Of a stretch of DNA of 33,451 nucleotides, positions 8,038 through 33,451 are shown in pieces. The stretch comes from Balneolaceae bacterium (lineage in GTDB: Bacteria; Bacteroidota; Rhodothermia; Balneolales; Balneolaceae). The position numbers and the translations under genes are program-made. The notes beneath the pieces were generated by a model that was given only the letters and a program-made list of their open reading frames with translations, ran no database searches and was not told the DNA's origin. The stretch covers positions 32,001-65,451 of the forward strand of contig JAEPQH010000020.1 of assembly GCA_017640605.1 (NCBI GenBank), written 5' to 3'. Numbering within the stretch: the stretch's first letter is position 1; each line of letters starts with the position of its first letter.

Positions 8038-8800
8038 AGTCTACCAATTCTTTCGGTAGTACCAATTTAAATTGGGAGTCATAGACCCCGCTCTTCACTA
8101 TACTGCGATCCCCTGCTCCCAGGTCGATTTTTTCAAGCTCTATATATTTCATTACCGGAAGCTGTGCTTTATCAGCCATAAACAGAAAAAGCCGTTTTAC
8201 TTTTATAGAAGTGCATTTTTCCAGCAATTCCTGCATCAAGTTAGGGCGTAAAGTGGTAAGCCCTTCCAAGATTTGATAAGACTCCAACAGCTCAAAGTTT
8301 TTCTTAGATACATATATTTTCTCAAGTATTGCTCGTTCAGCCGTTGATGAAGCTAGTGGAAAACTACCATATCCCAGTTCTCTGATACCATGCTTTTCAG
8401 GTAAAAAGGATGTATTCACAGACTCTATCTCAACTCCCCAGTTCTGTTCTGTAAACCACTTGGGTAAGGATAAATTTCCGGAGGAAAAGATAAAAACCCG
8501 CTTTTGATTTGGGCGGAGATAATGAGCCATCCCCAGGGAATTTAAAGCCGTGATTCCACCGATATGTACATTAAGTTTTAACTGTTTTTGTAATGCATAT
8601 ATCGCGCCCTGCCAATCTAATTTATCTTTACTCTTTACATAAGCTCCTCTTCCTAGCCCAGTCAGCCACCCCGATTGTTTGTACTTTTGAATAAGCTGCC
8701 GGGATATTCCTAGTTCATTAAACCATGGTGTGGTCCCGACCATCCCCGGTACCCAAGCATTTAATAGCTTCATTAATTTATTTTCATCAGGTAAACTCAT
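8030..8800 (-). CDS. abiEi: AbiEi-type antitoxin / transcriptional autorepressor
   Basis: A 256-residue protein matching the AbiEi_3 antitoxin layout. An N-terminal winged helix-turn-helix (about residues 20-60, with GISRQLIQKYKQSGWLTGLG followed by RGAYV) precedes a C-terminal domain (about 70-256) with the usual HIGGITALNSLGMAHYL motif. Antitoxins of this family repress their own promoter and neutralise the nucleotidyltransferase without the tight complex seen in type II systems. The gene is first in a two-gene operon and overlaps abiEii by 8 nt. The start ATG (8798-8800) lies in the spacer of an inverted repeat (8791-8807), and an identical repeat lies upstream (8867-8883). Both are likely operators. 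Confidence in the pair is high because both partners and their order match known AbiE loci. Confidence 0.85.
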   Translation of the reverse strand: MSLPDENKLMKLLNAWVPGMVGTTPWFNELGISRQLIQKYKQSGWLTGLGRGAYVKSKDKLDWQGAIYALQKQLKLNVHIGGITALNSLGMAHYLRPNQKRVFIFSSGNLSLPKWFTEQNWGVEIESVNTSFLPEKHGIRELGYGSFPLASSTAERAILEKIYVSKKNFELLESYQILEGLTTLRPNLMQELLEKCTSIKVKRLFLFMADKAQLPVMKYIELEKIDLGAGDRSIVKSGVYDSQFKLVLPKELVDYV

Positions 8801-8807
8801 AGTTTAC
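8791..8807. promoter_or_regulatory. AbiEi operator candidate 1 (spans the abiEi start codon)
   Basis: Perfect inverted repeat GTAAAC-TCATA-GTTTAC with 6-bp arms and a 5-nt spacer. The abiEi ATG falls in the spacer. Binding here would block transcription or translation initiation. Confidence 0.6.
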
Positions 8808-8866
8808 AAATAGCAAATATTTTAAAGTAATGCAATACATATCCCACTTTGGGAAATATTGAATAG

Positions 8867-8883
8867 GTAAACTATTGGTTTAC
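8867..8883. promoter_or_regulatory. AbiEi operator candidate 2 (upstream)
   Basis: Perfect inverted repeat GTAAAC-TATTG-GTTTAC with the same arms and spacer length as the repeat at 8791-8807, 76 bp away. Both sites share the longer string AGGTAAACT on the left. A further small palindrome TCCCA-CTT-TGGGA (8842-8854) lies between them. Confidence 0.6.
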
Positions 8884-8992
8884 GTTTGAGAAGGATTTTG
8901 AAGTAAAGACTACTATCACTTCTCAAGCACGGCTTTTCAATACATTCGAGAAGCCAATGATTCAATTTGACCATTAAAAAATATCGTGCATG

Positions 8993-9028
8993 AAAAAAGC
9001 CCCGCCGGATGTGAATTCCAACGAGGCT
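8993..9028 (-). terminator. Rho-independent terminator of the tRNA-Arg gene
   Basis: Read on the minus strand, AGCCTCGTTGGA pairs with TCCGGCGGGGCT (12 bp, some G-T) around a 7-nt loop and is followed by six T residues. It begins 11 bases after the tRNA 3' end. Confidence 0.85.
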
Positions 9029-9038
9029 TATTTAGGTG

Positions 9039-9112
9039 TACACCCGAGAAGATTCGAACTTCTAACCGCCTGATTCGTAGTCAGGTACTCTATCCAGTTG
9101 AGCTACGGGTGC
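9039..9112 (-). tRNA. tRNA-Arg (anticodon ACG)
   Basis: The 74-nt cloverleaf reads on the minus strand. The acceptor stem GCACCCG pairs with CGGGTGT (one G-T), the D-arm is GCTCAACTGGATAGAGT, and the anticodon stem CCTGA/TCAGG encloses loop CTACGAA with anticodon ACG. The T-arm contains GTTCGAATC. The ACG anticodon is read as inosine after deamination and decodes CGU/CGC/CGA. CCA is not encoded after the discriminator base, so it must be added post-transcriptionally. The gene stands alone and has its own terminator. Its 3' end faces the AbiE locus. Confidence 0.95.
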
Positions 9113-9214
9113 ATATCATTTCAGTAATTGAATTCTCAAAAACATGAGAGCCTCAAATATAAGGAGCTTTTAGCCGGTGAACAATAGTAGAATGGATTTT
9201 TTTAGAGAATATTG

Positions 9215-9262
9215 GAGTTACAGAGTTACAGAGTTACATAGTTACATAGTTACATAGTTACT
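9215..9262. repeat. Octanucleotide tandem repeat (K)AGTTACA x6
   Basis: Six consecutive 8-bp units: three GAGTTACA, two TAGTTACA and a final TAGTTACT. The first base switches from G to T halfway along, consistent with growth by slippage or unequal exchange. It lies in the 296-base gap between the tRNA and ahcY. Apart from this repeat and the ahcY terminator I see nothing else in that gap. Confidence 0.9.
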
Positions 9263-9345
9263 AAGGCAGGTACTTCTTTGAATAGAGTATAAATGTTGAC
9301 AGCTCCAAAAATCCTGCAAATCCTTAAATCAGTATAATCAAGGTC

Positions 9346-9382
9346 AAAAAAAGCTCCCTCACGCGGTGCATGAACAGGAGCT
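9346..9382 (-). terminator. Rho-independent terminator of the tlpA-ahcY operon
   Basis: On the minus strand, AGCTCC pairs with GGAGCT, enclosing a second stem TCATGC/GCGTGA with loop ACC. A run of seven T residues follows. It is 27 bases past the ahcY stop codon. Confidence 0.85.
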
Positions 9383-9408
9383 CTTTAAAGTTTCGTAAGA
9401 ACTAATTT

Positions 9409-10716
9409 TTAATATCTATACTCATCCGACTTATACGGACCGGTAATCGGTACACCAATGTAATCGGCTTGTTCTTGAGACAGAGTTTCTAAGTCTGCAC
9501 CGATTTTTGATAAATGTAATCGGGCTACTTTTTCATCTAACGATTTTGGTAGTACGTGAACTCCGGGAGCGAATTCTTCAGGACGGTTCCAAAGTGCGAT
9601 CTGAGCAAGTGTTTGATTTGCAAAACTGTTACTCATTACAAAAGATGGATGTCCGGTCGCATTCCCTAAATTCATTAATCGTCCTTGAGAAAGAAGGATT
9701 ACCTGATTGCCATTCTTTAGAGTAAAAATATCTACCTGTGGCTTGATGTTTTCTTCTTTAGAATTAGCTTTTAACCAAGCAACGTCAATCTCGTTATCAA
9801 AGTGACCAATGTTTCCAACAATCACTTTGTCTTTCATAGCTTCGAAGTGTTCACCACGAACAATGTCTTTGTTTCCGGTTGCAGTAACAACGATGTCAGC
9901 TCGAGGTGCAGCATCATCCATGCGTTTTACTTCAAAGCCATCCATAGCTGCCTGAAGTGCGCAAATCGGATCGATTTCGGTAACGATTACCCGAGCTCCG
10001 GCACCACGTAGTGAAGCAGCTGTTCCTTTCCCTACATCTCCGTATCCTGCAACAACGGCAACTTTTCCGGCCATCATCACGTCGGTTGCGCGACGAATAG
10101 CATCAACAGCTGATTCTTTACATCCGTACTTGTTGTCAAATTTTGATTTAGTTACCGAGTCGTTCACGTTAATTGCTGGAAGTGGTAGTGTTCCTTTACG
10201 CTCGCGTTCGATTAATCGAAGTACACCGGTAGTAGTTTCTTCCGAGATTCCACGAATTCCAGATACCAATTCCGGGTAGTTATCTAACACCATGTTGGTA
10301 AGGTCGCCACCATCATCTAAAATCATGTTCAATGGTTGGCCATCCGGGAAGAAAATGGTTTGTTCGATACACCAGTCAAACTCTTCTTCGGTCATATCTT
10401 TCCATGCATACACAGGAATTCCCGCTTCAGCAATTGCAGCAGCTGCATGATCCTGAGTTGAATAAATATTGCAAGATGACCAGGTAACTTCTGCGCCCAA
10501 ATCAACTAAAGTTTCAATGAGAACAGCAGTTTGGATAGTCATGTGTAAACAGCCTGCAATCCGAGCACCTTTTAATGGTTGTTCGTTTTTGTATTCTTCA
10601 CGAATAGCCATTAATCCCGGCATTTCTGCCTCTGCCAGTTCTATTTCTTGCCGACCATATTTAGCCAGAGTAATATCTTTAACTTTATAAGCGAGTTTTT
10701 CCTCTACGTGTGCCAT
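9409..10716 (-). CDS. ahcY: Adenosylhomocysteinase (S-adenosylhomocysteine hydrolase)
   Basis: A 435-residue cytosolic enzyme that splits S-adenosylhomocysteine to adenosine and homocysteine, clearing the product inhibitor of methyltransferases. Conserved features are visible along the whole length: [32 protein letters not shown], the substrate region [20 protein letters not shown], the NAD-binding [17 protein letters not shown], and the invariant C-terminus KSDEYRY, which reaches into the partner subunit's NAD site. The length fits the shorter bacterial form. The ATG at 10714-10716 follows the tlpA-like gene by 14 bases, so the two are co-transcribed. With so short a leader, no riboswitch specific to ahcY can fit directly in front of it. 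A strong terminator follows. Confidence 0.97.
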
Positions 10717-31091: not shown

Positions 31092-32066
31092 ATGGAAGAC
31101 ATTGCCAACAAAACTTTTAAAGTAGTAATCATCGGAAGCGGTCCTGCCGGTTTAACGGCAGCTCTATATGCTGCACGTGCCGATCTGAATCCAATCGTTT
31201 TTGAAGGTCCGGAACCGGGCGGTCAGCTAATGACAACTACCGACGTGGAGAATTTCCCCGGTTACCCGAACGGTGTGATGGGACCTCAAATGATGCAGGA
31301 CTTCCGCGAACAAGCCACCAAGTTTGGTGCTGATTGTAGATATGGTTACGTAACCGATATCGAGTTTGGAGATCGTCCGTATAAACTCACCGTAGATGAG
31401 AAAACTGAGATTTATGCGCACACTATTATCATTTCTACCGGTGCTTCGGCAATGTGGCTGGGACTGGAAAGCGAAACCAAACTACGTGGAAAAGGAGTTT
31501 CAGCGTGTGCTACGTGTGATGGAGCTTTTTTCAGAAATCAACATGTAGTAATTGTTGGCGGTGGAGACACGGCCATGGAAGAAGCCACTTTCCTAACCAA
31601 GTTTGCCAGCAAAGTTACCGTTGTACATCGTAGAGATGAATTAAGAGCTTCAAAAGCGATGCAAGCTCGGGCTTTCGCTAACGAGAAAATCGAGTTTATG
31701 TGGGATAGTGAAGTCGAAGAGATTTTAGGTGATCAGGTTGTGGAAGGTGTTCGCATCAACAATAGAAAAACCGGAGAGAAAACAGTTTTAGAGGATGTTA
31801 CCGGAGTATTCGTAGCCATCGGACATAAACCTAATACTGATCTATTCAAAGGCGTGCTTACGATGGATGATGTTGGATATATCCAAACAAAAGGCCAATC
31901 CACAAAAACAGACCTGCCAGGAATTTTTGCCTGTGGTGATGCTATGGATGCCATCTATCGCCAGGCGGTTACTGCAGCCGGCACGGGTTGTAAAGCTGCA
32001 TTAGATGCCGAACATTATTTAGGAGAACTACCCAAAGAAGCCATCGCCGAAGAACATTGGAAGTGA
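31092..32066 (+). CDS. trxB: Thioredoxin reductase
   Basis: A 324-residue flavoprotein that reduces thioredoxin with NADPH. The FAD domain opens with VVIIGSGPAGLTAALYAARA (11-30). The NADPH domain contains the redox pair CATC (Cys139/Cys142) in SACATCDGAFF, and then VVIVGGGDTAMEEATFL and VTVVHRRDELRASK, where HRR marks NADPH preference. The C-terminal FAD motif GIFACGDAMDAIYRQAVTAAGTGCKAA is intact (only part quoted: GIFACGDAMD). Length matches low-molecular-weight TrxB. A weak promoter box TACCTTCA lies at 31057-31064. A degenerate inverted copy of the TCACCGAA-type repeat begins 10 bases after the stop codon. Confidence 0.96.
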   Translation: MEDIANKTFKVVIIGSGPAGLTAALYAARADLNPIVFEGPEPGGQLMTTTDVENFPGYPNGVMGPQMMQDFREQATKFGADCRYGYVTDIEFGDRPYKLTVDEKTEIYAHTIIISTGASAMWLGLESETKLRGKGVSACATCDGAFFRNQHVVIVGGGDTAMEEATFLTKFASKVTVVHRRDELRASKAMQARAFANEKIEFMWDSEVEEILGDQVVEGVRINNRKTGEKTVLEDVTGVFVAIGHKPNTDLFKGVLTMDDVGYIQTKGQSTKTDLPGIFACGDAMDAIYRQAVTAAGTGCKAALDAEHYLGELPKEAIAEEHWK

Positions 32067-32076
32067 TAGTTGATGT

Positions 32077-32104
32077 GGTGATTTGGTGATAAAGTGAGGT
32101 GATG
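32077..32104 (-). repeat. Degenerate inverted remnant of the TCACCGAA repeat
   Basis: GGTGATTTGGTGA (32077-32089) differs by one base from the reverse complement of TCACCGAATCACC, and GTGAGGTGATG follows. It faces the main arrays, so an RNA across this region could pair with them. Confidence 0.5.
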
Positions 32105-32133
32105 TTTTACTTTATTCCTTTCTATATGGAAAA

Positions 32134-32273
32134 TCTCTCGATCTGATGGCTTAGAGTCCGTCTGACCGATCTTAGGGGGAGAAAAAAATACTCGGCTTTA
32201 ACCCATCCATTAGACGAGAAATCCGTCAGATGGATTAATAAAGTATACATTTAATAATATTGATCTTACATTC
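32134..32273 (+). repeat. Dispersed structured repeat, core copy A
   Basis: About 140 bases that recur at 33167-33315 with roughly 15 mismatches, mostly transitions, and one 10-base insertion in the other copy. The core has two hairpins: stem 32138-32149/32158-32169 with an 8-nt loop, and a longer imperfect one around 32198-32238 (CCATC...GATGG with flanking TTAA). The core runs directly into the octamer array. The 374-base gap 32067-32440 holds only repeats of this kind. Confidence 0.8.
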
Positions 32274-32369
32274 TCACCGAATCACCGAATCACCGAATCA
32301 CCGAATCACCGAATCACCGAATCACCGAATCACCGAATCACCGAATCACCGAATCACCGAATCACCAAA
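32274..32369 (+). repeat. Octanucleotide tandem array TCACCGAA, 11 perfect units plus one degenerate
   Basis: Eleven identical units fill 32274-32361, followed by TCACCAAA and then two further decayed units (TCGGCGAG, TCACCATT). There are no spacers, so this is not a CRISPR. The unit is open in all three plus-strand frames. Confidence 0.95.
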
Positions 32370-32390
32370 TCGGCGAGTCACCATTTAATC

Positions 32391-32438
32391 TCTCGGTCTG
32401 ACGGCTTTCAGCACGTCTATTGGAAGAAATACTTTCAA
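32391..32438 (+). repeat. Dispersed structured repeat, truncated core copy A'
   Basis: Starts TCTCGGTCTGACGGCTTTCA, matching the beginning of the other cores. It keeps the 5' arm of hairpin 1 and part of the 3' arm, then a decayed GAAGAAATACT segment, and stops at the 3' end of the CPBP gene. No second hairpin and no octamer array. Confidence 0.6.
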
Positions 32439-32440
32439 TT

Positions 32441-33139
32441 TTAGTAGTTGGATGGACTTTTTTTGCGCAAATACAATTTGAATAGGCCATACATCAACAA
32501 AATTGAGAGAGTATAACCTGTGGTTTGAATCCCAAAATCTGTCAATTCAGAAAATTTACGAGTTGCTTCAGATGTTAAAATTAATTGTCCAAATGGTTGA
32601 TAATCAGTAAACAATGATGATTGAAAGTTCCATGATAAATGTGCTGCGATAGGTAGCAGAATTGATTTGGTCTTTGAATACATATATGCCCAAACTAATC
32701 CCATGGAACCGGTTAGCACGAAAATATATGTCATTGGAACTAGGCCACTACCAAACATTCCATAAGTGAACCAATGATATACCCCGAAAGAAACAGCCGA
32801 AATAAAGATGGCCATCTTATTTGAAGTATAATGAATGAGTAAAGCTAGAAGAGCTCCTCTGAAAATGAGTTCTTCAAATAAAACCGATTGTAGGTAGAAG
32901 TAAAACGCTTCTGCGACGGTAGAAATACTTATTGCTTCACTCACACTCCATTCGCAGTTATATGTTATACTTTTAATAAATAATGGTATTACAAACGAAG
33001 CTACGGCAATGATGATGCCTATTCCTAATTCTTTGAGACGTAGTAAAAGTGGTGAAAACCATGTGCTGAACAGCGATTCCTTTAGTACAAAATAAAACAG
33101 GACCCACGAAACTCCTGCTAACATTAAATTTACGAGCAT
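32441..33139 (-). CDS. CPBP family intramembrane glutamic endopeptidase
   Basis: A 232-residue membrane protein with six to eight hydrophobic segments. It belongs to the CPBP (Rce1-like, Abi) family of intramembrane proteases. The three catalytic motifs are present: FEELIFRG (Glu89-Glu90 and Arg94), FGVYHW (His122) and HLSWN (His167, Asn171). Relatives cleave prenylated proteins in eukaryotes, and in bacteria are linked to bacteriocin self-immunity or signal-protein processing. The substrate is unknown. The gene is enclosed by same-orientation copies of a structured repeat: the truncated copy A' ends 2 bases past its stop codon and copy B starts about 30 bases before its ATG. Its promoter must therefore lie within or beyond copy B. 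Confidence 0.88.
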   Translation of the reverse strand: MLVNLMLAGVSWVLFYFVLKESLFSTWFSPLLLRLKELGIGIIIAVASFVIPLFIKSITYNCEWSVSEAISISTVAEAFYFYLQSVLFEELIFRGALLALLIHYTSNKMAIFISAVSFGVYHWFTYGMFGSGLVPMTYIFVLTGSMGLVWAYMYSKTKSILLPIAAHLSWNFQSSLFTDYQPFGQLILTSEATRKFSELTDFGIQTTGYTLSILLMYGLFKLYLRKKSPSNY

Positions 33140-33166
33140 ATGGAAAGAACAGATTTAAAAATTACG

Positions 33167-33315
33167 ATCTCGGTCTGACAGCTTAAAGTCTGTCCGACCG
33201 ATCTTGGGGGAAGAAAAAAATACTCGGCTTTAACCCATCCATCAGACGAGAAATCCGTCAGATGGATTAATATGGATTAATAAATTATGCACTTGATAAT
33301 ATTGAGCTTACATTT
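33167..33315 (+). repeat. Dispersed structured repeat, core copy B
   Basis: About 89% identical to core A, with a 10-base duplication of ATGGATTAAT. Hairpin 1 (33170-33181/33190-33201) is better paired than in copy A. It is followed directly by the second octamer array. Confidence 0.8.
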
Positions 33316-33451
33316 TCACCGAATCACCGAATCACCGAATCACCGAATCACCGAATCACCGAATCACCGAATCACCGAATCACCGAATCACCGAATCACC
33401 GAATCACCGAATCACCGAATCACCGAATCACCGAATCACCGAATCACCGAA
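33316..33451 (+). repeat. Octanucleotide tandem array TCACCGAA, at least 17 perfect units, runs off the window
   Basis: Seventeen identical 8-bp units fill exactly 136 bases to the window end without a single variant. The homogeneity contrasts with the decayed tail of the first array and points to recent expansion or, less likely, an assembly artefact at a contig end. Confidence 0.95.

Follow-up and report, generated by a model that had tools for sequence, protein, structure and literature searches.

Near its end, the 33,451-nucleotide stretch of Balneolaceae DNA analysed here (the window) carries two copies of a core of about 140 bases, each of which runs into a tandem array of the octamer TCACCGAA. 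This arrangement raises the question of whether core and array constitute a single repeat family that moves as a unit, as a preliminary description of the sequence had proposed, or whether they are separate repeats with separate histories. The locus was compared among 77 family genomes, in which G000 denotes the genome of the window and G001 and G002 its congeners.

Cores and arrays in the window

The two cores (32134–32273 and 33167–33315) have the same orientation and are 89% identical (101 of 114 aligned positions), just as first described, and TRF analysis places the change from core to octamer array at the same point in both (Table 1). Sixteen-mer matches to the octamer with at most three mismatches number 30 in the window, against 0.29 expected by chance. 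The truncated third core that had been noted after array 1 (32391–32438) is also present in decayed form, starting at 32390 and traceable to approximately 32456. Contig C15 (65,451 bp) ends at base 33451, and because this assembly break cuts array 2, the length of that array is a lower bound. No copy of the gene expected next by the order in G001 and G002, which we take to be DUF4342-like from a reading of its protein and not from a family search, turned up in the G000 assembly; array 2, or the sequence immediately behind it, is therefore the probable site of the contig break. A further array of 8-mers (GAGTTACA, 5.9 units, 9215–9261) is found elsewhere in the window, in a gap between mechanical ORFs (8800–9409).

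Table 1. Features at the end of the window, in positions counted from its first base.
Feature	Position	Strand	Evidence
Thioredoxin-reductase-like gene (called trxB), left synteny anchor	31092..32066	+	Pfam Pyr_redox_2
Octamer-like stretch in inverted orientation (GTGGTGATTTGGTGAT...), to the left of core 1 and facing array 1	32075..32104	-	Inverted repeat
REP-like hairpin A, core copy 1, stem partly decayed	32138..32169	+	Aligned with 14 other A-B pairs; weak fold, z -0.9
REP-like hairpin B, core copy 1, inverted relative to A	32205..32235	-	Alignment, stem count, fold z -3.5
AT-rich tail, common to core copies 1 and 2	32236..32273	+	Sequence comparison
TCACCGAA array 1, 13.6 units, last units decayed	32274..32382	+	TRF, 93% match
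Decayed BIME adjoining the 3′ end of CPBP, probably orthologous to G001 BIME1	32390..32456	+	Synteny, alignment
CPBP family intramembrane protease gene between BIMEs	32441..33139	-	Pfam PF02517, E = 1e-17
REP-like hairpin A, core copy 2, intact	33170..33201	+	Alignment, stem count, fold z -4.3
REP-like hairpin B, core copy 2, intact, inverted relative to A	33237..33267	-	Alignment, stem count, fold z -4.8
TCACCGAA array 2, 17 units or more, truncated at the contig end	33316..33451	+	TRF, 17 copies, 100% match

The hairpin pair and its associated transposase

Each core contains two hairpins. In core copy 2, hairpin A is formed by TCGGTCTGACAG-loop-CTGTCCGACCGA and, after a spacer of 35 bases, hairpin B, which is A-like but inverted, by ATCCATCAGACG-loop-CGTCAGATGGAT. 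CTGACGG/CCGTCAG cores are common to both, and each stem has one mismatch (T·T or T·C in A, mirrored as A·A in B), which is kept in B in 15 of 15 aligned A-B pairs from G000 and its relatives and is usual in A (12 of 15). When folded as single-stranded DNA, three of the four window hairpins perform better than shuffled sequences (z -3.5 to -4.8), the exception being the decayed hairpin A of core copy 1 (z -0.9). Across the 15-pair alignment, 89.4% of stem cells are paired, a figure that is favoured by the choice of these pairs with sequence patterns requiring most stem bases to be paired, and seven base pairs have changed on both sides. All five measures of stem pairing exceed those of 500 shuffles, none of which reaches the observed values. 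The compensatory changes and slid controls indicate that the structure is real despite the selection, and stem covariation supports both hairpins A and B. Traits of REP/BIME sequences are therefore present, namely imperfect palindromes of 20–40 nt that form hairpins with compensatory changes and that occur as pairs in inverted orientation. No conserved GTAG head (GT(A/G)G at the 5′ foot) was found at A or B in this alignment.

A covariance model of the A-B pair has matches in 22 of the 77 family genomes at E ≤ 0.001, including 13 in G000, 11 in G001, 36 in G019 and a maximum of 48 in G090; in these counts a palindrome may score once per strand, and single hairpins account for many of the weak matches. 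Strong A-B loci are intergenic, lying between mechanical ORFs, in 22 of 23 cases. The preliminary description had proposed that many intergenic copies in related genomes, each followed by the octamer, would support a family. Dispersed intergenic copies do occur in these 22 genomes, but full A-B cores at the loci inspected in relatives stand without the octamer. A simple local duplication was rejected as the whole story, since cores are found at non-orthologous loci in relatives. A DNA search of G000 returned the two window cores and single hairpins elsewhere, and the two window copies are its only high-scoring complete A-B units, the rest being weaker or single hairpins. REPs usually exceed 100 copies per genome, a usual trait and no strict criterion, and the 37 covariance-model matches in G000 at E ≤ 0.1, with palindromes partly counted on both strands, fall below this number.

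G001 encodes a RAYT of 197 aa (L134:1469–2062) that matches the NCBIfam model REP_Tyr_transpos (NF047646) with 66.1 bits and E = 3e-18, which is below the curated cut-off of 80, and scores just at the cut-off of 23 for Pfam Y1_Tnp; another RAYT-like protein, in G032, reaches 117 on the NCBIfam model. An A-like hairpin lies approximately 45–65 bp upstream of the G001 gene and a B-like hairpin approximately 10 bp downstream. A-B pairs stand on both sides of the RAYT gene in G075, G080 and G059, and A/B-type hairpins surround it in G090 and G019. The BIME is present in all nine genomes whose RAYT has an identity of 53% or higher, compared with 13 of the 68 others (Fisher p = 3e-6, shared ancestry being ignored). 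The HUH residues (N53, H54 and H56) and the Y motif YIHQNP are invariant in 12 relatives, with Y or F as the middle HUH residue. Searched against PDB sequences, the RAYT had no match.

Because the A-B pair recurs between genes in many family genomes and flanks RAYT genes in several, the core is assigned to a family that looks mobile. It is very probably a BIME/REPIN-like doublet in which the REP hairpins A and B face opposite ways, non-autonomous and formerly moved by a RAYT (Y1/HUH). The earlier suggestion of a non-autonomous mobile element agrees well with this structured, dispersed and mobile-looking family. Drawing on published TnpA-REP work and the gene neighbourhood, we infer a mechanism in which the RAYT would bind the single-stranded hairpins, cut near the hairpin foot using its catalytic tyrosine and insert copies elsewhere.

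REPs have also been proposed as terminators or mRNA stabilisers (PMC3733652), and the core could in principle be a functional RNA or a bidirectional transcription terminator that is kept by selection at gene ends and does not move. The covariation of the hairpins fits such a role, as does the position of several copies after stop codons and of core copy 1 and the first BIME of G001 between convergent genes, but we consider it unlikely. No site resembling an intrinsic terminator was found at the cores, and Rfam contains no match to the core at E ≤ 1, so that both an intrinsic terminator and a known RNA family were rejected as its identity. The association with RAYT genes and the presence or absence of the element at an orthologous site (see below) point instead to mobility.

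No member of this RAYT clade was found in G000 at E ≤ 1e-15, and the REP doublets of the window are therefore probably orphan copies. A different RAYT-like gene of G000 (C1:223701) was rejected as the partner of the core because its flanks carry another palindrome, AAGCGTCCGCTTG. This second gene on C1 encodes 182 aa on the minus strand (L118:2944–3492, within L118:1140–3860), and the palindromes AAGCGTCCGCTTG / CAAGCGGACGCTTG that are repeated around it are possibly a separate REP-like set. IS200-type transposases of G000 were also discarded, since a scan of two of their loci (L094 and L110) showed no A/B hairpins nearby. Distant RAYT homologs in the family (L150, L154, L147 and L158) have their own, different palindromes on both sides, as would be expected if each RAYT pairs with its own REP, and they form a ready set for the study of RAYT/REP co-evolution.

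A probable local duplication and the octamer arrays

In G002 the DUF4342-like gene comes immediately after trxB, and the interval contains no BIME, CPBP gene or array (L173). The order in G001 is trxB, BIME1 (directly at the trxB stop codon), CPBP, BIME2, TCACCGAATCACCGAATCAACCAATCA (approximately two octamers) and the DUF4342-like gene (L174 and L062), and that in the window is trxB, inverted octamer-like stretch, core 1, array 1, decayed core, CPBP, core 2, array 2 and contig end. CPBP and both flanking BIMEs are jointly present in G000 and G001 and jointly absent from G002 (window 32067–33451 versus L173:300–340), a pattern that looks like the gain or loss of one block in the interval from trxB to the DUF4342-like gene. 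The CPBP gene of G001 is in two parts, on contigs C25 and C24, and is broken across two contig ends (L062:1–250 and L174:2000–2081). The edges carry unrelated sequence, suggestive of an insertion at the break.

The decayed core of the window abuts the 3′ end of CPBP, like G001 BIME1, and is closest to that BIME (85% over 74 aligned positions in a short, heavily gapped alignment); what first appeared as a truncated third core is thus the probable ortholog of G001 BIME1 and would be the original first BIME of the locus. The tail between hairpin B and the array is common to G000 cores 1 and 2, shorter and diverged after G001 BIME2, and absent after G001 BIME1; the array is likewise common to the two G000 copies and G001 BIME2 and not to G001 BIME1. 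Given this sharing and the synteny with G001 and G002, core 1 and array 1 are most simply explained as having been copied from core 2 and array 2 once the lineage had split from that of G001. The BIME-CPBP-BIME arrangement between trxB and the DUF4342-like gene would predate that split, and the octamer would have begun as about two units beside the right BIME and grown, probably by slippage. A later ectopic copy, arising probably through recombination or template switching between BIMEs, would then have put core, tail and array on the trxB side of the older left-hand BIME.

The original claim of a composite unit survives to the extent that core and array were apparently duplicated together once in G000, but they do not form one family. 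It is very improbable that the two transpose jointly as a composite mobile element: the junction lies at the same point in both window copies and G001 BIME2 has about two octamers at its junction, but all three cases represent one ancestral junction or its local copy. Within the family the octamer occurs only in G000 and, as those two units, in G001; a composite core-plus-octamer family was rejected because the octamer is absent from 75 of the 77 genomes and from BIMEs at other loci, those of other genomes included. The only other octamer site in G000, on contig C32, has arrays in inverted orientation on both sides of a 23S-rRNA-IVP gene and contains no core. The locus shows how a single local duplication can make a core and a neighbouring simple repeat look like a composite family. 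Among named genomes, 12 scattered loci from unrelated phyla have at least four octamer units, and no A/B hairpins were seen by eye in the printed flanks of these loci. As its occurrence is restricted, apart from cores and scattered across phyla, the octamer is best seen as a separate, slippage-prone array.

IVP genes (23S-rRNA-IVP, four-helix-bundle, PF05635) were observed to be flanked by 7–8-mer tandem arrays at further loci (L044:925–1530 on G000 C32; L219–L268). A 7/8-mer array lies within 300 bp of the IVP gene in 17 of 21 cases in G000 and G001, whereas 193 kb of control sequence give an expectation of 0.034 per locus; the C32 gene was found through its array, and the count without it is 16 of 20. 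The units differ at most loci, and two-sided arrays are often, not always, inverted. Literature of incomplete coverage yielded no report of arrays flanking IVP genes, which may merit a study of their own.

This frequency, the inverted octamer flanks of the C32 gene and the inverted octamer-like stretch that faces array 1 would all fit a tentative reading of the array only, compatible with the REP assignment of the core, in which the octamer array belongs to the IVP-flanking 7–8-mer class and the array in the window is what remains of, or was copied from, an IVP cassette with the BIME next to it. We regard this as possible and somewhat doubtful, because no IVP match is reported in the interval, the flank of G001 BIME2 (L062) shows no left arm, and TCACCGAA arrays in unrelated phyla imply that the shared unit could be convergence. 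A broader proposal appears improbable, namely that the octamer arrays are a case of a general cassette of inverted, locus-specific 7–8-mer arrays that bracket IVP genes and are made or maintained by an IVP-linked process, with a BIME captured here in place of the IVP gene.

Relation to known repeat systems

Cyanobacterial STRR sequences are intergenic direct repeats of 7–8-mers. TAACTGA repeats, from Beggiatoaceae, Cyanobacteria and some Bacteroidetes, are also intergenic 7–8-mer direct repeats (PMC4679880). The octamer resembles both as a short-unit intergenic tandem array of variable copy number, but its unit differs and it occupies two places in one genome, beside BIMEs and on both sides of an IVP gene.

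The preliminary description knew of no named repeat family with this make-up, but REP/BIME sequences with RAYT (TnpA-REP; Nunvar 2010, PMC2817692), together with REPINs (Bertels, PMC3116915), are a named kind. In common with these, the window elements are imperfect palindromes with stem mismatches, arranged in inverted pairs and dispersed between genes, and they flank a Y1/HUH transposase gene in relatives; in contrast, they have no GTAG head and are few in number, and G000 has yielded no cognate RAYT. A little-studied GTAG-less REP/RAYT system is thereby shown in this bacterial family, and because apparent orphan genomes coexist with genomes that keep the RAYT, its loss and persistence can be compared.

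TnpAY1 subclass 2.6, or RAYT group 5, is reported chiefly from Bacteroidetes and has atypical palindromes with no GTAG (PMC6006769). Judged by motifs and flanks, the RAYT clade described here resembles this group: its members have NHxH and YIHQNP motifs, a length of approximately 180–200 aa, and atypical GTAG-less palindromes with copies elsewhere in the genome. They differ from the published motifs NH[LIV]H and YIH[QN]NP (PMC6006769) in the middle HUH residue, which is Y or F instead of L, I or V. The element at this locus is an apparently orphan REP doublet from a GTAG-less RAYT system of a known kind, beside which an unrelated octamer array was duplicated once with the BIME.
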